A stretch of DNA of 36,517 nt from assembly GCA_012518115.1 (NCBI GenBank), contig JAAYTD010000072.1, positions 1-36,517 on the forward strand. Reading direction: 5' to 3'. The translations under genes and the position numbers were made by a program. The notes under the pieces are model-generated. The model saw only the letters and a program-made list of their open reading frames with translations. It searched no databases and had not been told where the DNA came from. Source of the stretch: Ignavibacteria bacterium. Lineage in GTDB: Bacteria; Bacteroidota; Ignavibacteria; Kapaibacteriales; UBA2268. Below are positions 11,650 through 34,005 of this stretch, one piece after another; within the stretch, counting starts at the first letter, position 1; every line of letters starts with the position of its first letter.

Positions 11650-11700
11650 TGTACTATTTTATTTTACTTTTAATTAAATAAATTATTGATATTAAGAAAT

Positions 11701-13821
11701 ATGAAGATAAAAGTTTTTTTTATTTGTGCTTTGCTTTTTTTAGTTCAGCCTTGTTATTCTCAATCAAGTATTGAAATAACAAGGGACGCGTATATACAAA
11801 ATTTGATAAAAGAATTAGTAGATGAAATACATATCAATCAAGTAACTATAGATGATTCTTTTTCTGAGGTTAGTTTTAATGCTTATTTGAAAAACTTGGA
11901 CTACTACAAGCGTTTCTTTATTCAAAGTGATATTGACACTTTAAGTCATTATAGACATCTTTTAGATGATCAATTTAAAGAAGGAAAATTTGATTTTTTT
12001 AATTTATCACAAGAACTAATTCTAAAACGAATTAAGGAAGCGGAAAATTACTATAAAAATGCACTAAAAGAACCTTTTAATTTTGATAAAGAGGAATATA
12101 TTCAACTCAATGTTGATAGTATATCTTGGGAAAAGAATAAAGAAACATTAGAAAAACGTTGGTATCAACTTTTGAAATATGAAACATTGGCACGCGTTCA
12201 TTCTGATATTGAGGCACAAAAGAAAGCTAAAGAAAAAAGTGATACTGTAAAGGAAAAGAGTTTTTCAGAAATAGAAACTAAAGCGAGAGAATCTGTTTTG
12301 AAAAAATACAATAATTGGTTTGATTTTATTTCGCAATGGGAGCATAATGATTTATTTTCTTATTATATAAACTCATTATTGACTAAATATGATCCACATA
12401 CTGAATATTTCCCTCCAAAAGAAAAAGAAGATTTTGATATTAGATTTTCAGGGCAGTTGCAAGGTATAGGTGCTACACTTTCGCAACGAGACGGCTATAT
12501 TACTGTGGTGGATATTATACCGGGCAGTCCTTCTTGGCGACAGGGTGATTTAGAGGTAAACGATAAGATTTTGAAAGTAGCTCAAGGTGCTGAAGAACCT
12601 GTTGATGTTGTTGAGATGCGTTTAGATAAAGCTGTTAAGTTAATTCGTGGTCCTAAAGGAACGGAAGTTCGTCTGACAATACAAAAAATAGATGGTACGC
12701 AAAAAACTATTAAAATTATTCGCGATTTAGTTGTTATAGCGGAAACGTATGCAAAAACTATGATTATTACCGACAATGAAACGGATAAGAAGTTCGGTTA
12801 TATATATTTACCGTCCTTTTATGCTAATTTTAATGATCCACGGGGTCGCAGATGTTCAAAAGATATAGCAGATGCAGTTGAAAAATTGAAAGATGAAAAT
12901 GTAGAAGGAATTGTTTTTGATTTGAGAAATAATACGGGCGGTTCATTAATGGATTGTATAGATATAGCTGGACTATTTATTGAGACTGGACCTGTTGTTC
13001 AAGTCAAATCTAGTAACATTGTAAGAGTATATAATGATCGTGATGCAGACATATTATGGGACGGTCCTTTGGTTGTGATGATTAATCAATCGTCAGCATC
13101 GGCTTCCGAAATTTTTGCTGCTGCTATGCAAGATTATAAGCGTGCTATTGTTATGGGTACAAATAGTTTTGGAAAAGGTTCTGTGCAACGTTTTGAAGAC
13201 TTAGATGCAAGAGTTCAAGGAATGAACGATATAAAGCCGTTAGGAGCATTAAAAATTACTTTGCAAAAATTCTATCGTGTCAATGGTGGTTCTACGCAAT
13301 TAAAAGGGGTGGCGCCTGATATACCTGTAACAACTATGTATAAATATATTGACTATGGAGAGCGTGAGTTAGAACATCCTTTAGATTGGTCGGAGATAAA
13401 AGCTACAAAATATGATATTTGGAAAAATGATACTTGCGATTGGGAAACTATTAAAAATAATAGTTTAGAGCGTATGAGCAAAAATCCTTTCTTTATAAGA
13501 ATGGACGAAAATGCGAAACGATTAAAGAAAAATAGAGATAATACTGTATATCCTTTGAAATATAAAGATTATGCAAGTTATATTGATAAAGCCAACGAAG
13601 AAGCAGAAAAATTTAAAGATTTAGGTACAGATACTTTGGATATTGAAGCAGTTATTTTAACGGTAAACGAGGAAGATAAGAATGAAGAAAGCGATACGAC
13701 AGCTATAGAACGTAATAATAAATGGATAAAGCAGATAATTACAGACGATATATTATACGAAGCTTTAAAAGTATGTAATGATGTATTGCATTTAGATTGT
13801 TTTAGAAAGCCAGAAGATTAA
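11701..13821 (+). CDS. prc: Carboxy-terminal processing protease (Tsp/Prc, S41A)
   Basis: A periplasmic PDZ protease that degrades or trims proteins from the C-terminus. Signal peptide at residues 1-25 (ending CYSQ). A helical N-terminal region (about 25-225) is followed by a PDZ domain ('LQGIGATLSQRDGYITVVDI', then 'PGSPSWRQGDLEVNDKIL'), the S41 core and a C-terminal Lys/Glu-rich domain as in E. coli Tsp. The catalytic residues align exactly with E. coli Tsp spacing: Ser467 in SASASEIF, Asp478 in MQDY and Lys492 in FGKGSVQ (11 and 25 residues after the Ser). The start is ATG 11701; the frame's TTG at 11686 would precede the signal peptide. It ends 10 bp from the convergent dusB stop. Confidence 0.94.
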   Translation: MKIKVFFICALLFLVQPCYSQSSIEITRDAYIQNLIKELVDEIHINQVTIDDSFSEVSFNAYLKNLDYYKRFFIQSDIDTLSHYRHLLDDQFKEGKFDFFNLSQELILKRIKEAENYYKNALKEPFNFDKEEYIQLNVDSISWEKNKETLEKRWYQLLKYETLARVHSDIEAQKKAKEKSDTVKEKSFSEIETKARESVLKKYNNWFDFISQWEHNDLFSYYINSLLTKYDPHTEYFPPKEKEDFDIRFSGQLQGIGATLSQRDGYITVVDIIPGSPSWRQGDLEVNDKILKVAQGAEEPVDVVEMRLDKAVKLIRGPKGTEVRLTIQKIDGTQKTIKIIRDLVVIAETYAKTMIITDNETDKKFGYIYLPSFYANFNDPRGRRCSKDIADAVEKLKDENVEGIVFDLRNNTGGSLMDCIDIAGLFIETGPVVQVKSSNIVRVYNDRDADILWDGPLVVMINQSSASASEIFAAAMQDYKRAIVMGTNSFGKGSVQRFEDLDARVQGMNDIKPLGALKITLQKFYRVNGGSTQLKGVAPDIPVTTMYKYIDYGERELEHPLDWSEIKATKYDIWKNDTCDWETIKNNSLERMSKNPFFIRMDENAKRLKKNRDNTVYPLKYKDYASYIDKANEEAEKFKDLGTDTLDIEAVILTVNEEDKNEESDTTAIERNNKWIKQIITDDILYEALKVCNDVLHLDCFRKPED

Positions 13822-13831
13822 AAATAATAAT

Positions 13832-14875
13832 CTATCGTCTGCATTGCACTTTAGGTATTTCAGAATGATTATTAATGCTTAATCTATCATTTTCAACAAG
13901 ATAATCATAATAATCTGAAAGTATTTTCTTTATATCATTTATTTCTTCGGAAACGACAAGCTTTTGTCTAACGTTTGTTGCACCGAACATTCCTCTTAAA
14001 TAGCCGGAATAATGTTTGCGAAATTCATAGAGACCTTGTTGCCCTTTATATTCAATGCAATTTTCCAAATGTTTGATACAAACATCTATACGTTTTTGAA
14101 TTGTAGCTGGTGGCATTTCCTCACCATTTTCGAAAAGATACTTTGCCTCGCTAAATATAAAAGGATTTCCAACTGCGGCGCGTCCTATCATAATAGCATC
14201 AGCACCTTCTGTTTTTATTGCTTCTAAAGCTACTTGCGGAGATGATATATCGCCATTTAGAACGAGCGGAATAGATATTTCTTTCTTTATTTTTGGTATG
14301 AATGTCCAATCTGCTTTTCCGGTTATTTTCATATCGCGGGTTCGGCAATGTACAGTAATAGCTTTAGCACCAGCTTTTTCTTGAAGCTTAGCGATTTCAA
14401 ATATATTTATAGATTTTTTATCCCAACCTAATCTTGTTTTTATTGTTACGGGAATTTTAACACTTGCGGAGCATTCATTTGTAATTTCTGCCATTAGTTC
14501 AGGATTTTTCATAAGAGCTGCACCTGCATTATTATTTACAACTTTTTTTACCCAGCATCCATAATTAATATCAACAATATCAGCTCCTTCTTCTTCAGCT
14601 ATTTTTGCAGCTTCAGCCATAACTTTTGGATTACTGCCAAAAATTTGGATAGCTACAGGACGTTCTTTTTTATCTATTAACATTTTGTTGAACGATTTTT
14701 CAACATCTCTTATAAGTGCTTCAGATGCTACAAATTCTGTATATACAATATCAGCTCCTAACTCTTTACATAATAAACGAAATGGAAGGTCTGTTATGCC
14801 TTCCATAGGCGCTAGTAAAATAGCATTTTTTATTTTGATATTTTTATTCAGTTCAAAAGTTCTATCTACTAACAT
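13832..14875 (-). CDS. dusB: tRNA-dihydrouridine synthase (DusB-like)
   Basis: A flavoenzyme that reduces uridine to dihydrouridine in the tRNA D-loop. The TIM-barrel blocks are all present: 'LLAPMEGITDLPFR', 'QIFGSNPKVMAEAA', 'VDINYGC', 'PVTIKTRLGWD', 'AITVHCRTRD', 'PLVLNGDI' and the FMN-phosphate loop 'MIGRAAVGNPFIF'. The catalytic cysteine is Cys107; the residue after it is Trp (GCWVKK), where this family usually has Pro (GCPVKK). The start is taken as ATG 14875, giving 347 aa and a 14-bp overlap with the end of the upstream gene; a GTG at 14899 would add eight residues. It is the last gene of the motAB operon, probably by transcriptional convenience rather than function. Confidence 0.92.
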   Translation of the reverse strand: MLVDRTFELNKNIKIKNAILLAPMEGITDLPFRLLCKELGADIVYTEFVASEALIRDVEKSFNKMLIDKKERPVAIQIFGSNPKVMAEAAKIAEEEGADIVDINYGCWVKKVVNNNAGAALMKNPELMAEITNECSASVKIPVTIKTRLGWDKKSINIFEIAKLQEKAGAKAITVHCRTRDMKITGKADWTFIPKIKKEISIPLVLNGDISSPQVALEAIKTEGADAIMIGRAAVGNPFIFSEAKYLFENGEEMPPATIQKRIDVCIKHLENCIEYKGQQGLYEFRKHYSGYLRGMFGATNVRQKLVVSEEINDIKKILSDYYDYLVENDRLSINNHSEIPKVQCRR

Positions 14876-16103
14876 TTTGTTTTTTAACGTAAATATCACC
14901 TAATATCGGATTATATGAGGAATGTGCTATGATTTTATCAATAATAGATTGATTAATTATAGCTCCAGCAGACAATAATTTATTTCCATTTCCTGTATAA
15001 ATATCGCGTGCTAATATCATATTGGGTAATAGTTGTCCTAATGTTATAGCTTCATCGTCTGTTGCGAAGTCTGCCACATTAGATTTAAGGTAGTTTTCAA
15101 AAAGAATAACTACTCTTTGATCGTATGCTTTTTGTGATTGTTTTTTTATTTCTTCTAATGCGGCAGCAGGTAAATAATTTGAATATAGGCAGAGTTCTTC
15201 AAAATCAAGACTTACACGTATTATTCTAGAAGCTAGTGGAATTTGCCAAGCTCGTAAATGGGAAGGGAAACCACTTCCGTCTATATTTTCATAAATAGCA
15301 AATAAAATATCGCTTACATTAGAAAATTTAGGTATAGTTGATACTATTTCTTTTGTTGCTGCCGGCAAACTTAACATAAGAGATGAACTTGGTTTACCCT
15401 CAATTAGAACAGGTTGTTTAATAACACTATCAGGCAAAGAAAAGCGACCTGCTTGCGAAAAATAAGCAGCTAGCTCTATTTCTTGGATTTCGGATTTCTT
15501 AAACTTTCCTATTTGTTCAGCTACCCATACAGACGCTTTAGCTACTCTTTGTAACATTTGTGAAGAAGAAGGTAGTCTTGCGTGCATGAATTTTGTAGAA
15601 AGTTTAGCCATTCCTTGAACTATATCTTTCAGATTATCTGTAGTTTCGCGTAATTCTTTGTTTTCTTCTTTTAATTGATTTTGTAAATTTATTATTCTAA
15701 AAGCGGAACGTAATCTAGCTTCTAATACTTCAGTAATTATAGGTTTAGATAGAAATTCATCAGCTCCTAATTTTACTGCATCTCTTCTGTGGTGGCTATC
15801 GGAATTTGCAGTCAGCATAATAAAATACATACTGTCATATTCTTTGTTTTGTCTAACTGTTTTCAGAAGTTCAATCCCGTTCATAAGTGGCATATTATAG
15901 TCTGATAACACTAGGTCGGGCTTTTTATCTTCAATTATTTCTAAACCTGTTTGTCCTTCGTTTGCAGTATATATCTCTAAGTCGGGAAATATGTTTTCTA
16001 TAAGCTTACGCAAAGTAAAAAGAATACCTTTGTCGTCGTCAATTAAAAGAATTTTCGTTTTATATTCTATTTGTTCTTGTTTGTTTGTTATTTCATTTTC
16101 CAT
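14862..16103 (-). CDS. Receiver-domain response regulator fused to a degenerate HD-GYP domain
   Basis: The receiver domain (about 17-135) is complete: acidic pocket Asp22-24, phosphoacceptor Asp68 in SDYNMP, Thr98 and Lys120. A coiled linker (about 138-165) leads to an HD-GYP-type domain (about 178-340). The fold is recognisable from 'DGSGFPSHLRAWQIPLASRI' (275-294), the counterpart of DGSGYP..GL.G..IPl.aRI. The metal and catalytic residues are missing: the HD of HDIGK is Ser-Gln (SQAGR, 216-220) and the HHE before DGSG is IYEN. The C-terminal 'LPNMILARDIY...LLSAGAIIN' block (359-384) is typical of proteins of this class. It is therefore probably not an active c-di-GMP phosphodiesterase; it could sense or scaffold. 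Its ATG overlaps the motB stop (TAATG), so it is likely part of motor control. Confidence 0.85.
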   Translation of the reverse strand: MENEITNKQEQIEYKTKILLIDDDKGILFTLRKLIENIFPDLEIYTANEGQTGLEIIEDKKPDLVLSDYNMPLMNGIELLKTVRQNKEYDSMYFIMLTANSDSHHRRDAVKLGADEFLSKPIITEVLEARLRSAFRIINLQNQLKEENKELRETTDNLKDIVQGMAKLSTKFMHARLPSSSQMLQRVAKASVWVAEQIGKFKKSEIQEIELAAYFSQAGRFSLPDSVIKQPVLIEGKPSSSLMLSLPAATKEIVSTIPKFSNVSDILFAIYENIDGSGFPSHLRAWQIPLASRIIRVSLDFEELCLYSNYLPAAALEEIKKQSQKAYDQRVVILFENYLKSNVADFATDDEAITLGQLLPNMILARDIYTGNGNKLLSAGAIINQSIIDKIIAHSSYNPILGDIYVKKQNVSR

Positions 16104-17038
16104 TATCGCTCATTTCCCATATTATTGATAAATTGTTCTGAGGAGATGTGTTTTACTAATATACTTACTCTTCTATTTGATACATCAAACGGGTTACTTT
16201 CATTTTTTAATTTTTTGTCTGCATAGCCGGCAACAGTTATAATTTGACCGTTCCAAGTTCCATTTTGTTCAAGTACTTTTCGGGCAGCATTAGCTCTGTC
16301 GGTTGAGAGCTCCCAGTTTGAATAAATAGAAGGTGAAGAATATTTACGGCTGTCAGTATGTCCTGCTATTTCTATAGGATTAGGAAGCATACCTATTTTT
16401 TTAGCTAGTTGAGATAGAATTTGAACTGCAGCAGGTTTTAATTTTGCACTACCTATTTCAAAGAAATGATTATCTTGAGATTCTATAAGTTCAATTTGTA
16501 ATCCTTCAGGAGCTATTTCTATACTAAGAGAAGAGACTAGATCTTGCATTTCTAACGATTTACCCCTTAGTTCACTTACAGTTTGTCGTATATCATTACT
16601 AACTTGTTGCACTTTTTCTGCAGCAGCTACGCTATCTTGCATTGCCTGCATTAAACTTTGTTCTATTTTTAGAGTAGTGTCTTGGTCTTCTCCTTCACTA
16701 AAAGACCAAGTGAAACTCTTTGGTTCACTTCCTTTTCCTTCACCTTTTCCACCACCTTTCGCAGGAAATTCGTGCATATCAATAGGTGAGGTTTTTTGTC
16801 CAGTAAATATATCAAATTGGCTAGGGTCATTAAAGTATTCTGCAACTCCTGCTTTAGTTTCTTCGCCTTGCGCTAAGATCCACATTACAATAAAAAAAGC
16901 CATCATAGCAGTAACGAAATCAGAGTAAGCAACTTTCCATGCGCCTCCGTGATGTCCGTGTGCTGCTTTCTTTATCTTTTTTATTATAATAGGTTGTTCG
17001 GAACTTGATTGACTTTGTATTTCGTTTTCTTCTGCCAT
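16103..17038 (-). CDS. motB: Flagellar stator protein MotB
   Basis: MotB is the peptidoglycan-anchored half of the proton- (or sodium-) driven stator. The diagnostic N-terminal block is present: a His-rich cytoplasmic segment, then 'GGAWKVAYSDFVTAMMAFFI' (31-50) with the essential ion-carrying Asp40 at the start of the single membrane helix. A Gly/Lys linker and a helical plug/linker region (about 110-175) lead to the OmpA-like wall-binding domain (about 180-298), with 'IAGHTDSRKY' (224-233), 'NWELSTDRANAARKVL' (241-256) and a late 'NRR' (288-290). The 311 aa length is standard. Its stop shares a base with the next ATG (TAATG), and motA ends 39 bp upstream. Distinguished from ExbD/TolR by the WKVAYSDFVTAMMAFF block and the OmpA domain. 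Confidence 0.95.
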   Translation of the reverse strand: MAEENEIQSQSSSEQPIIIKKIKKAAHGHHGGAWKVAYSDFVTAMMAFFIVMWILAQGEETKAGVAEYFNDPSQFDIFTGQKTSPIDMHEFPAKGGGKGEGKGSEPKSFTWSFSEGEDQDTTLKIEQSLMQAMQDSVAAAEKVQQVSNDIRQTVSELRGKSLEMQDLVSSLSIEIAPEGLQIELIESQDNHFFEIGSAKLKPAAVQILSQLAKKIGMLPNPIEIAGHTDSRKYSSPSIYSNWELSTDRANAARKVLEQNGTWNGQIITVAGYADKKLKNESNPFDVSNRRVSILVKHISSEQFINNMGNER

Positions 17039-17077
17039 AATAATATATTTTTATTTATTTGAACAAATTTAAGTAAA

Positions 17078-17926
17078 TTATTTTCTATAGTGTTCTTCAG
17101 TTTCTTTGAATGTAGGACGATTTGCTGGATCTATAGATCTTCTACCAAATTCTACGGCGACATTTGAAGGAGCTCCTTTCGCATAGGATAAAACAGCTGC
17201 TTTTATAACCATTATATACTTACCTTCTATATTTGCATAAGTTCCCATTAAACTTGCAATTGGTCCAACGATACCATAAGACATAAGCACACCTAAGAAT
17301 GTACCAACTAATGCAGCACCAACGTGATGACCTACAGCTGCGGCACCTTGATCAATAGAACCCATCGTTACAATAATTCCAAGTACAGCGGCAACAATAC
17401 CAATTCCTGGAAAAGCATCAGCAACAACTTGCATTTGAGCTGATGGTACGTGTTCTTCTTCATGTATGCGTTCTAAGTCAGTGTCCATAAGCTCATCTAA
17501 ATCATGAGCAGGAACTCCACCAGAAAGTAAAACCTTTAATGTATCGCAAAGAAAATCAACAGCATGGTGATTAGCTAAAAAAGAAGGATATTTTGAAAAA
17601 ATACTACTTGATGTAGGATTTTCAACATGGGATTCAAGAGCGATTAAACCTTCGCGTTTTGAAAATTGAAAAACTTCATAAAGTAGTTTTAAAAGATCTA
17701 AGTATGCAGCTTTGTTGACGCTAGGACCTTTCAATGTTCCTAACATATCTTTTACAATTTTAATAACGGTAGGCAAGGGGTTAGCTATAAGAATAGAACC
17801 GAGAATTACACCACCTATAGTAACGAATTCAGAGACTTGTAGCAGGGTTAGAGGATTACCGCCCGCCATCATAAATCCGCCTAGCATACTGCCTAATACA
17901 ACAACAATACCAATAATTACAAACAT
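17078..17926 (-). CDS. motA: Flagellar stator protein MotA
   Basis: MotA is the membrane half of the stator that turns ion flow into rotor torque. Four membrane helices are visible: about 1-21, 32-50, 170-190 and 203-225. The torque-generating charged residues of the cytoplasmic loop are in 'SKREGLIALESHV' (89-101), Arg91 and Glu98, and the two functional prolines are Pro173 ('AFPGIGIVAAVLGI') and Pro222 ('GPIASLMG'), at the same numbering as in E. coli MotA. This makes it a genuine MotA rather than ExbB/TolQ. Its ATG immediately follows the upstream TPR gene's stop (TAA-ATG with no gap), so the two are very likely translationally coupled. No other flagellar gene lies in the window. Confidence 0.95.
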   Translation of the reverse strand: MFVIIGIVVVLGSMLGGFMMAGGNPLTLLQVSEFVTIGGVILGSILIANPLPTVIKIVKDMLGTLKGPSVNKAAYLDLLKLLYEVFQFSKREGLIALESHVENPTSSSIFSKYPSFLANHHAVDFLCDTLKVLLSGGVPAHDLDELMDTDLERIHEEEHVPSAQMQVVADAFPGIGIVAAVLGIIVTMGSIDQGAAAVGHHVGAALVGTFLGVLMSYGIVGPIASLMGTYANIEGKYIMVIKAAVLSYAKGAPSNVAVEFGRRSIDPANRPTFKETEEHYRK

Positions 17927-19591
17927 TTATATTTTCCTTTTGTTTTCTAACAAATTAGTTTCGTTTAACTTAACATTTAATTTACTTATTTTATCAATTA
18001 AATTATGATCGTTCGGAGATAATTGCAATGCTTGAGTATAAGCTTCTTTTGCTTCTTTATATTTCTCCATTTTCATATATATATCGGCTAAATGTTCAAA
18101 AACTTCTGCACTTTTTTCTCCTAATTCAATAGATTTCAAAATATATTCTAAAGCAACTTCATAATTTCCTAAATGATAATGAATCCAACCGTATGTATCG
18201 AGATAAGCCGAATTATTCGGTGAAATTTTTATTGCTTGTTCCGAATATAGTAAAGCTTTATCAAGATCTATATTTCTAACACATAAAGAATAAGCATAAT
18301 TATTATTTACAAGAGGATTTTCAGGTTCTAATTTTAATGCCTTTTTAAAATAAACATCTGCTTTGTCAAACTTTTTTAGTGCATCATAAATAGTTGCAAG
18401 CTGTGATAAATTCTCTATTTGTTCAGGACCACGTTCCAAAGATAACTTTGAAAAATGCAAAGCGTTTTCAAGATTATTATTTTGAAAATAATAAAGACTT
18501 AAATAAAATGGATATATCCAATTTTCAACATCTTCATTAGTAAACTCTAAAAGTTTAAGTTCATATTTATCAGGAAATCCGTAAGATAAATATGAAGCTG
18601 CTATCTCTAACGGTAAATTATAATCAGAGCTAGTATTTGTCAGTACACGGTTAAAATACTGAGCTGCTAAATTAGTATCAGATAGCGACAAAGCTATATT
18701 TGCTGATAAAAAATTTAATTTCCAATAAAAGTAAAATCTATTATCTATTAAATCTAAAAATTTGAATTTAATTTTATTAGGAACTTCCTTGCTTCTTATA
18801 AAATGATTTAGTATCATACTATAAGGATATTCTAACTTCACAGCTGAATAATGATCGTCTATAAATTTACAGTGTGCCAATAGTGAATCATAAAGCTTGT
18901 GTTTAATGTAATAATTTATGAGCTCATTTGTAAAAACAATATTGTCCGAAACATTTTTTGCTAATTTTGACAATGTTTTTAGATATAATGTTGAATCATT
19001 AGTTAAACGACAAAGCTCTAAAATTCGTAAATTTATTAAGCTGTTATTATATTTTTCTGTTGCAATTGTATAATAATGCAAAGACTTATTGATATTTTGA
19101 TACTCGTATATTTTTGCAAGAGCAATTAAATGTTTTTCATCTTCTTCAATTTTAACAGCAGTTTCTAATGAAAAAATTGCATTTTGCAAATCCATTTTTC
19201 TAAGGTAAGATTCTGCTAAAATATCATAAGCAGGAATAAAATTTTTATCATATTTTAAAGCTGTTAAAGCATTTTTTATTGCAAAATCCAACTTATCTAA
19301 TGCTAAATAAGATTTAGCTATTAGATAAAAAATTGTTGCTGAAGAATCGTAACGTAATGCCGATTGAAATTCTAAAACAGCTTCAGCGTAATTATTTTGC
19401 ATTTGACAAACTGAGCCTGCTATAAAATGCGAAGTTAATTTCTTATTTTGTTCTGTAGTATCAAAATAATTTAATTTTTTTTGCTGATACTTAAGCCATA
19501 AAAAATCATTTTGTTTATCTTTATTAAAAGAAGAACAAGAATTTAACAAAAATGAAAATAGAAATAATATAAAAAATAAGGGCTTAAGCAT
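17927..19591 (-). CDS. TPR-repeat lipoprotein at the head of the motAB operon
   Basis: A 554-aa protein with a lipoprotein signal (LFSFLLNSC, lipidated Cys19). The rest is almost entirely TPR-type helix pairs. Clear units include 'AGSVCQMQNNYAEAVLEFQS', 'IAKSYLALDKLDFAIKNALT', 'LAESYLRKMDLQNAIFSLET' and, after a more degenerate middle, four good units near the C-terminus ('LATIYDALKKFDKADVYFKK', 'NNYAYSLCVRNIDLDKALLY', 'YGWIHYHLGNYEVALEYILK', 'LADIYMKMEKYKEAKEAYTQ'). No enzyme motif is visible, so it is probably a protein-protein scaffold on the periplasmic or surface side of a membrane. It abuts motA without a gap, which suggests a link to the stator, but this is inference from gene order. 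It could equally be a general envelope TPR protein that happens to be first in the unit. Confidence 0.8.
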   Translation of the reverse strand: MLKPLFFILFLFSFLLNSCSSFNKDKQNDFLWLKYQQKKLNYFDTTEQNKKLTSHFIAGSVCQMQNNYAEAVLEFQSALRYDSSATIFYLIAKSYLALDKLDFAIKNALTALKYDKNFIPAYDILAESYLRKMDLQNAIFSLETAVKIEEDEKHLIALAKIYEYQNINKSLHYYTIATEKYNNSLINLRILELCRLTNDSTLYLKTLSKLAKNVSDNIVFTNELINYYIKHKLYDSLLAHCKFIDDHYSAVKLEYPYSMILNHFIRSKEVPNKIKFKFLDLIDNRFYFYWKLNFLSANIALSLSDTNLAAQYFNRVLTNTSSDYNLPLEIAASYLSYGFPDKYELKLLEFTNEDVENWIYPFYLSLYYFQNNNLENALHFSKLSLERGPEQIENLSQLATIYDALKKFDKADVYFKKALKLEPENPLVNNNYAYSLCVRNIDLDKALLYSEQAIKISPNNSAYLDTYGWIHYHLGNYEVALEYILKSIELGEKSAEVFEHLADIYMKMEKYKEAKEAYTQALQLSPNDHNLIDKISKLNVKLNETNLLENKRKI

Positions 19592-32256: not shown

Positions 32257-34005
32257 ATGAAAAAAACAACTGATAACCCACAAAAATTGATTAAAACTAT
32301 TCGCGACTATTCTAAAAACAGACTAAAAACTACTAGTTTATTAGCAGTATGTGTATTACTTATTTCTTATATTTTCAGCTATGATGCTGCAGCTCAAAGT
32401 ATTGTTTGGCAACATAGTATGGATTTTCCAGAAGAGGCAGCAGTATCCCCCAGTGATTATAATGGTACGCCTTTAATTCCTACAAGTGATAATAATTATC
32501 TACTTAGTTATAATTTTTATAAGCTGATAGGTATGGAATATAGAGAGGGTGGCGGGACTTTTGTTAAGAATTATGAGCCTTGTATTATTAAATTTGATGA
32601 TTTAGAAGGCAAATTTATTTTTAAAAAAACATATCCTGATGAAAATATTCGTAAATATGAAGGCAAGATTTATAAACATCAATTTGAAAAGTTTGACTTT
32701 ATAATGGAAAAGAAAAGCGGTGAGTATTGGTTCGCAGGGCATTCTCATTGGACGACATATGTTGAAAGCGGCAATTCATATGTAACAGGTGCTCTTATGC
32801 TTAAGTTTCCTTATCTTGTTAAAACGAATGCTAATGGAGAAATTATTAGTATGAAGAATGTCCAAAAAGAAGTTTTTAATTCAGGCAAGGGACCTTCTAA
32901 TGAAAGATCTTTTGTTGGGTCTCAAGGTAAATTATTTTATGATTCGGAACGTGAACTGTTTGTTCGTTTTGTAGTTAATAAAAATTTTTTAGTAATTCAA
33001 GAATTTGACACAAATTTTACGAAAATTAACGATAATAAAGTTTCCAGATTTCAACTTTCTACAGAGTTAAATGAGACAAACTCGTCTAATCTATTAGTTA
33101 AGAAACTTTTAAACGGCAATTATGTTGTTTTTGTTAAACTCAATTTGAAGGGTGGTGATTATTACGGAGGATTATTTCGTACTTATACATCTAATTTAGA
33201 AATAGTAGAAGATAAGTATTTTGATGATTCGGAAAAAGTAGAATTAATGCATACTTGCCAAATAGATGAAACTAAAGATGGAAATATATTACTTGTTTCT
33301 TTAACAGATACGAATTTTATCATCAGAGAAATAACACCTGAATTTAAAAATGTAAGTTCAAAAACATTAAACCTTACGGAAAAATTTGATAATAAGGAAA
33401 TTACTCCACGAGGAGTTTTATTTTTAGATAACAAAATTCTTTTTATGGGTACGACAGACACAACGATATATTATAAAGCTTCTTCTACTGCACCTAAATT
33501 ATCAGAAAGGAAGCATTATAAACTACATCTTTTAGAAACCGATTTAGCTTATAATAATCAGCGGAAATTTAGTTTAAATGATTCTTCTTTTACGTATCTT
33601 AGTTTTGTTGTACGTCCCAGTATAGATAATAAAAATTATATTGTAGCTACTGTTAGTAGAGATATAATAACTGGGAGACGTAGTTTGTACTTAGCCAAGA
33701 TTGGCTCTTTTACTCCTATTTCTACCCCTGACTTAGTTACTTCTTCCACTGTTTCCACTGTCTTTCCGAATCCTATAGTAGCGGGCGAGGCTCAATTAAG
33801 TTTAGAATTAAAGCAATCTTGTGATGTACGCATTGTTTTAAGTGATGTTTTAGGTAGAGAAAAATTAAATATATTTTCAGGTTTTTTAGAAGCGGGTCGT
33901 TTTACTAAGTTTTTTGATGTAAGATGCTTAGCTAGTGGAATTTATTTTATAAAGACTTCTATAGGTGATAAATTTATAGTTGACAAATTAATAATTAATC
34001 GGTAA
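32257..34005 (+). CDS. T9SS cargo protein with C-terminal type A sorting domain
   Basis: A 582-aa secreted protein. The N-terminus is a long signal peptide: a basic stretch of about 25 residues, then 'SLLAVCVLLISYIFSYDAAAQ'-type hydrophobic core with cleavage near AAAQ-S. The body (about 48-495) is made of short strands with recurring 'G.YVVFVKLN' / 'DGNILLVSLTDTNFIIREI' patterns, compatible with a beta-propeller-like fold; no enzyme motif is seen. The C-terminal about 80 residues form a T9SS type A sorting domain: 'STVFPNPIVAGEAQLSL', 'CDVRIVLSDVLGREKL', 'LASGIYFIKTSIGDKF' and a final 'KLIINR'. It follows a PorV-like gene. It has an AGGAG site and a strong terminator (34045). Confidence 0.88.
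   Translation: MKKTTDNPQKLIKTIRDYSKNRLKTTSLLAVCVLLISYIFSYDAAAQSIVWQHSMDFPEEAAVSPSDYNGTPLIPTSDNNYLLSYNFYKLIGMEYREGGGTFVKNYEPCIIKFDDLEGKFIFKKTYPDENIRKYEGKIYKHQFEKFDFIMEKKSGEYWFAGHSHWTTYVESGNSYVTGALMLKFPYLVKTNANGEIISMKNVQKEVFNSGKGPSNERSFVGSQGKLFYDSERELFVRFVVNKNFLVIQEFDTNFTKINDNKVSRFQLSTELNETNSSNLLVKKLLNGNYVVFVKLNLKGGDYYGGLFRTYTSNLEIVEDKYFDDSEKVELMHTCQIDETKDGNILLVSLTDTNFIIREITPEFKNVSSKTLNLTEKFDNKEITPRGVLFLDNKILFMGTTDTTIYYKASSTAPKLSERKHYKLHLLETDLAYNNQRKFSLNDSSFTYLSFVVRPSIDNKNYIVATVSRDIITGRRSLYLAKIGSFTPISTPDLVTSSTVSTVFPNPIVAGEAQLSLELKQSCDVRIVLSDVLGREKLNIFSGFLEAGRFTKFFDVRCLASGIYFIKTSIGDKFIVDKLIINR

Follow-up and report, generated by a model that had tools for sequence, protein, structure and literature searches.

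Background

Which machine do flagellar-type stator genes serve when no other flagellar gene lies close to them? This question is raised by a contig of Ignavibacteria bacterium (JAAYTD010000072.1, assembly GCA_012518115.1), of which positions 1 to 36,517 were analyzed; this whole stretch of 36,517 nucleotides is referred to here as the window. Five tightly packed open reading frames on its minus strand encode, in order, a tetratricopeptide repeat (TPR) lipoprotein, the stator subunits MotA and MotB, a protein made of a receiver domain and a degenerate HD-GYP domain, and the tRNA-dihydrouridine synthase Dus, all with Pfam scores well over the cut-off. A preliminary description of the sequence had placed these frames and their junctions correctly, had proposed that the first four form one protein module, and had left the choice between a flagellum encoded elsewhere and stators that power something else. 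The reading we favor, with a probability of about 0.7, is that the organism is a dual-stator flagellate in which motA1, motB1 and the receiver gene form a unit that includes a stator regulator, while the TPR lipoprotein is an envelope protein and dus a chance neighbor.

A flagellum with two stator sets

Apart from motA and motB, no flagellar gene was recognized among the proteins of the window, in agreement with the preliminary description. The source genome, of 2.48 Mb and 97% complete, in which the window is contig C56, encodes FlhA on contig C72 and FliG on contig C24, and FliF, FliH, FliI, FliN, FlgI, FlgK, a FlgL-type flagellin-like protein and a rod protein are found near these two genes. 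This list comes from searches with protein families and from inspection of selected regions of the genome. The expectation that a flagellum might be encoded elsewhere is borne out by flhA, fliF, fliG, fliH, fliI, fliN, flgI and flgK on these other contigs. A second motA lies on C72 next to the flgL-like gene, and a second motB on contig C2; the best curated relatives of their products are the PRK09109 MotA and the MotD models, both under cut-off. The organism is a flagellate carrying two stator sets, the second of them MotCD-like.

The first set, that of the window, fits the flagellar type in every respect examined. The product of motA1 (17078..17926; MotA_N 83.4 and MotA_ExbB 41.2 bits) is of the MotA1 or E. 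coli type and passes, at 344 bits, the curated TIGR03818 MotA1 model, whose cut-off is 303.8; its residues R91, E98, P173 and P222 align with those of solved MotA sequences. The MotB_plug (63.3 bits) and OmpA (55 bits) domains of the motB1 product (16103..17038) are over cut-off, and D40 does not vary among 43 aligned sequences, so that all the motor residues and the OmpA domain reported earlier were recovered. The closest named MotA matches are metagenome genomes of Ignavibacteria-like and Kapabacteria-like organisms. With the MotA1 and MotB models, the catalytic residues and a co-occurring export and switch apparatus all found, MotA1 and MotB1 are ordinary flagellar motor genes of a flagellated relative of Bacteroidetes.

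The distribution of MotA1 was followed in 60 relatives, a genome being counted as flagellated if it has FlhA or FliG. FlhA was found in 48/60 and MotA of the window type in 45/60; MotA1 was present in 45 of the 49 flagellated relatives and in none of the 11 non-flagellated ones (Fisher p 4e-9, a value that is only indicative as the genomes are related). The sole genome having MotA1 and no FlhA, G043, has FliG. Two damaged gene sets were also noticed. G039 has flhA split over two frames and is missing fliG, motA and motB, its flagellum apparently decaying, and motB1 of G002 (L077 5438-6266) is split over two frames by a sequencing error or a recent frameshift.

The motA1-motB1-receiver unit

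The receiver gene (14862..16103; Response_reg 86.7 and HD_5 80.9 bits) shares the sequence TAATG with the end of motB1, as had been described, and follows motB1 directly in 41/45 relatives, the window being counted. Two more genomes, G029 and G051, have motA1 alone and motB1 together with the receiver gene at another locus, which brings the total linkage of motB1 and receiver gene to 43/45. The gene is missing beside MotA1B1 in G043, in G024 and in two genomes of the same genus as G024 (G395 and G398); in these three congeners (locus L097 in G024) the order TPR-motA1-motB1 is kept and the receiver gene is lost. No orthologue was detected by profile search in any of the 11 non-flagellated genomes, where the best scores were at most 108 bits and came mainly from the receiver domain; class-wide, long receiver orthologues score above about 178 bits.

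The association reaches beyond the order of the window genome. Across the class, FlhA was found in 21 of the 22 genomes searched that hold a receiver orthologue, and in the other orders sampled the usual gene order is flgL-motA2-motB2-fliW-(csrA)-motA1-motB1-receiver. In a tree, the class-level receiver sequences form one group, and unlinked second copies from the family of the window genome form another. These second receiver/pseudo-HD-GYP paralogues (L251-L259), present away from motAB in many genomes of that family, make up one clade with varied neighbors. These results show that a flagellar unit of motA1, motB1 and the receiver gene has been conserved throughout the class, and that its three genes are passed on, and lost, as a set.

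All four genes, TPR, motA, motB and receiver, are adjacent in 31/45 relatives, the window again included. This recurrence is too frequent for chance, yet only three of the four genes behave as a unit. The four-protein module suggested earlier holds in one part and fails in another: the receiver gene is a true class-wide partner of motAB, and the TPR gene, to judge by its distribution, is no part of the motor. The preliminary description had also reasoned that a flagellar gene set elsewhere, combined with absence of the TPR and receiver genes beside motAB in relatives, would reduce the locus to stator genes with chance neighbors; a flagellar set does lie elsewhere, and in relatives both genes are found beside motAB. 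We found no description of a receiver/HD-GYP gene in a stator operon in the open-access library searched, nor was one seen in the review PMC13432727. What is new is that this gene is tied to the stator operon throughout the class.

Sequence and predicted structure of the receiver protein

The receiver domain of the window protein carries the residues DDD, D68, T98 and K120, and the full phosphorylation set is kept in 25 of 42 receivers aligned from the order. In the same alignment the HD pair of the HD-GYP domain is gone from all 42 sequences, with S or C at the H position, so that the intact metal-binding pair of an HD-GYP phosphodiesterase is found in 0/42, and the motif ENxDGxGxP is invariant. 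Sixteen invariant positions fall in the pseudo-HD-GYP domain and none in the receiver. Together with the incomplete retention of the phosphorylation set, this pattern agrees with a domain that works by binding and that has lost its control by phosphorylation in some lineages. In other orders (L262-L270) the protein mostly has HE at the HD site, keeps HE-IGK and ENYDGTGYP, and is otherwise closer to the canonical domain, and the HD-GYP domain therefore seems to have degenerated in steps while part of the stator operon.

In a structural model of the protein (predicted local distance difference test score 90.8), the receiver is followed by a helix some 50 residues long (124-176), then by a helical domain resembling HD-GYP and a small domain at the C-terminus; almost all the matches listed in a fold search with this model were to receiver domains. 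No PilZ domain was found with Pfam. The closest curated family is NosR (NF053512), which the window protein matches with 212 bits and the class-level orthologues with 227-231 bits; the cut-off is 400, and by this measure they lie outside the family. NosR-type response regulators (NF053512; PMC12570481) resemble the window protein in having a receiver, an HD-GYP domain with an altered HD motif and a C-terminal extension, and differ from it in that its score is about half the cut-off, that nosP and nosK are absent next to its gene, where the window has motB and dus, and that it is linked to motB1.

Possible role of the receiver protein

A stator-dedicated regulator would explain the fixed linkage most economically, and probably a dedicated receiver/pseudo-HD-GYP protein tunes or selects MotA1B1. 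MotA1 and MotB1 are one of two stator sets belonging to an ordinary flagellum, the other genes of which lie on other contigs. In the scheme that we propose, the receiver protein would be a cytoplasmic regulator dedicated to MotA1 and MotB1. With its HD pair lost, the protein would have no phosphodiesterase activity and would work as a binding protein, probably in the form of a coiled-coil dimer. The surface bearing the invariant ENxDGxGxP motif may contact the stator, the rotor or an enzyme of cyclic di-GMP (c-di-GMP) metabolism, and phosphorylation could modulate that contact where the receiver is intact. In a dual-stator motor such a protein would be most useful if it switched MotA1B1 in or out with respect to the MotCD-like second set. 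The narrower proposal, that it binds MotA1B1 or its rotor contact and selects MotA1B1 over the MotCD-like set upon phosphorylation or c-di-GMP, is put forward only tentatively; if true, it would describe a stator-selection switch of a previously undescribed type.

Dual-stator motors such as that of Pseudomonas, with MotAB and MotCD, are alike in having two sets per genome, one of MotA1 type and the other nearest to the PRK09109 MotA and MotD models. They are unlike the present case, in which MotA2 and MotB2 score under the curated cut-offs and a receiver/pseudo-HD-GYP gene lies downstream of MotA1B1; to our knowledge, Pseudomonas MotAB has no such gene downstream. A second comparison is with the c-di-GMP motor brakes YcgR and FlgZ (reviewed in PMC13432727) and MotI. 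They share with our proposal the post-translational control of a stator set, and they are PilZ-domain proteins, unlike the receiver/pseudo-HD-GYP protein described here. How dual-stator bacteria settle on one of their sets remains to be explained, and PilZ proteins are the stator regulators known best. A receiver/pseudo-HD-GYP gene that is fixed behind motB1 across a class, and that in sister orders has a second stator set and fliW upstream, is a concrete and testable candidate.

Several observations weigh against a dedicated stator regulator. The receiver gene is dispensable for having a stator, as G024, G395, G398 and G043 have MotA1B1 without it; part of the phosphorylation set is missing from 17/42 receivers; and the tie to the stator is a genetic one only. 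The protein family is not strictly stator-bound either, since many genomes from the family of the window genome hold a further paralogue that is not next to motAB. This last point also favors a different explanation, in which the receiver protein acts on the c-di-GMP enzymes of the cell and not on the stator, and is co-transcribed with motAB for co-expression only. The NosR family, its best curated relative, likewise has a degenerate HD-GYP domain and is thought to work through other c-di-GMP enzymes (PMC12570481). We regard this explanation as less likely: the class-wide fixed place after motB1, and the loss of the gene together with the stator, point to a stator-linked role, without being proof of contact.

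The TPR lipoprotein

The TPR gene (17927..19591; TPR families in Pfam, with a lipobox) ends in a TAA that abuts the ATG of motA1 with no gap, a junction that had been noted before, and it adjoins motA1 in 33/45 relatives, most of its products having a lipobox. This adjacency is the remaining point against our reading of the locus, leaving room for an added motor role within the order. It is also the main argument for a periplasmic stator scaffold, with the four genes as one motor module, comparable to PflA and PflB of Campylobacter, MotK and MotC of alphaproteobacteria, or the spirochaete collar. These are periplasmic TPR proteins encoded beside the stator or working with it; binding to MotB or to the E-ring is known for some of them, and the MotK gene lies in a fliL-motE-motA operon (PMC10954123, PMC13023049).

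The distribution of the TPR gene makes such a scaffold improbable. Profile searches detected orthologues in five non-flagellated genomes (G025, G026, G036, G041 and G049), so that the protein does not occur only with flagella, and at loci separate from the stator genes in seven flagellated genomes (G044, G050, G042, G038, G054, G047 and G043); in the flagellated G020, G034, G048 and G055 they detected none. In several families of the order the TPR gene is followed by genes for a DUF4292 lipoprotein and LptD. Elsewhere in Bacteroidota, a related TPR gene is directly upstream of DUF4292 in 13 of 30 DUF4292 loci, and DUF4292 itself was found in 118/118 Bacteroidota searched. Moreover, the window protein is unlike the MotK group in occurring in flagellum-free genomes, and the AMIN domain of MotK was not seen in it. 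PflA, PflB and the collar protein were not among the matches listed in fold searches with the TPR model, although it may be akin to them; the matches listed were generic TPR proteins and LbcA.

A natural deletion separates the TPR gene from the other three. G342 and G025 belong to one genus, and G342, which is flagellated, was used as the main comparison instead of L052; G025 is without FlhA, FliG, MotA1 and MotB_plug. Their loci are collinear, with 88-91% identity on both flanks, and G025 lacks precisely the interval with motA, motB and the receiver gene (L260 8039-11018 in G342). G025 has kept the TPR gene intact, with a ratio of nonsynonymous to synonymous substitution rates of 0.071 on its branch against 0.11 in G342, an average over a branch of which part may predate the loss of the flagellum. 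The gene is kept under purifying selection in the non-flagellated G025. The same deletion is seen when G025 is set against L052; this locus, labelled Desulfobulbaceae, is collinear with those of G025 and G342 at 79-86% or more and has probably been assigned to the wrong organism.

A scaffold had at first been favored by analogy with MotK, PflA and the collar, and was dropped on the evidence of the non-flagellated orthologues and of the G342/G025 deletion. From its distribution and its retention in G025, the TPR lipoprotein probably belongs to the cell envelope; it has LbcA-like length and architecture and is probably no part of the flagellar unit. It would be a periplasmic or outer-membrane protein with a function of its own, whose gene came to lie upstream of motA1 within the order. 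The deletion is also a warning: a neighboring gene that seems to be co-transcribed, and that looks like a member of a module, may have an independent, flagellum-free history.

LbcA (PA4667), the outer-membrane TPR lipoprotein adaptor of CtpA, is similar to the window protein in lipoprotein nature, length and TPR build, and its profile match covers one long stretch (152-545). The structural match extends over 483 residues at about 15% identity and a root-mean-square deviation of 15.6, so the likeness may be generic to TPR proteins and an adaptor function here is putative.

Other neighbors of the stator genes

The dus gene (13832..14899; PF01207 Dus 302 bits) was found beside stator genes in no other locus fetched, and it is a chance neighbor. 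On the opposite strand lies a gene for a tail-specific protease of the Prc/Tsp type (11686-13821), its end and that of dus being 10 bases apart; LbcA, the best full-length solved relative of the TPR protein, is an adaptor of such a protease, and no evidence was found to support the idea, taken from LbcA, that the TPR protein is an adaptor of this one.

That the stators are non-flagellar and drive another machine, such as a gliding or type IX secretion motor, would suit a window without other flagellar genes and with one protein bearing a type IX sorting tail, and is extremely improbable given the flagellar genes of the same genome, the absence of MotA1 from all 11 relatives without FlhA and FliG, the fit of the locus proteins to the MotA1 and MotB models, and the placement of the same genes inside flagellar clusters in other orders. 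No match to GldL or GldM, the gliding or type IX secretion motor proteins, was found among the proteins of the stator locus. The distribution of MotA1 (45/49 against 0/11) speaks strongly against the idea that, in this group, these stators generally serve something other than a flagellum, and the suggestion that they power something else was rejected as a general account on this ground and on that of the genome's own flagellar genes. The window protein at 32257-34005 has the type A sorting tail (TIGR04183), and besides its flagellum the organism probably possesses type IX secretion.

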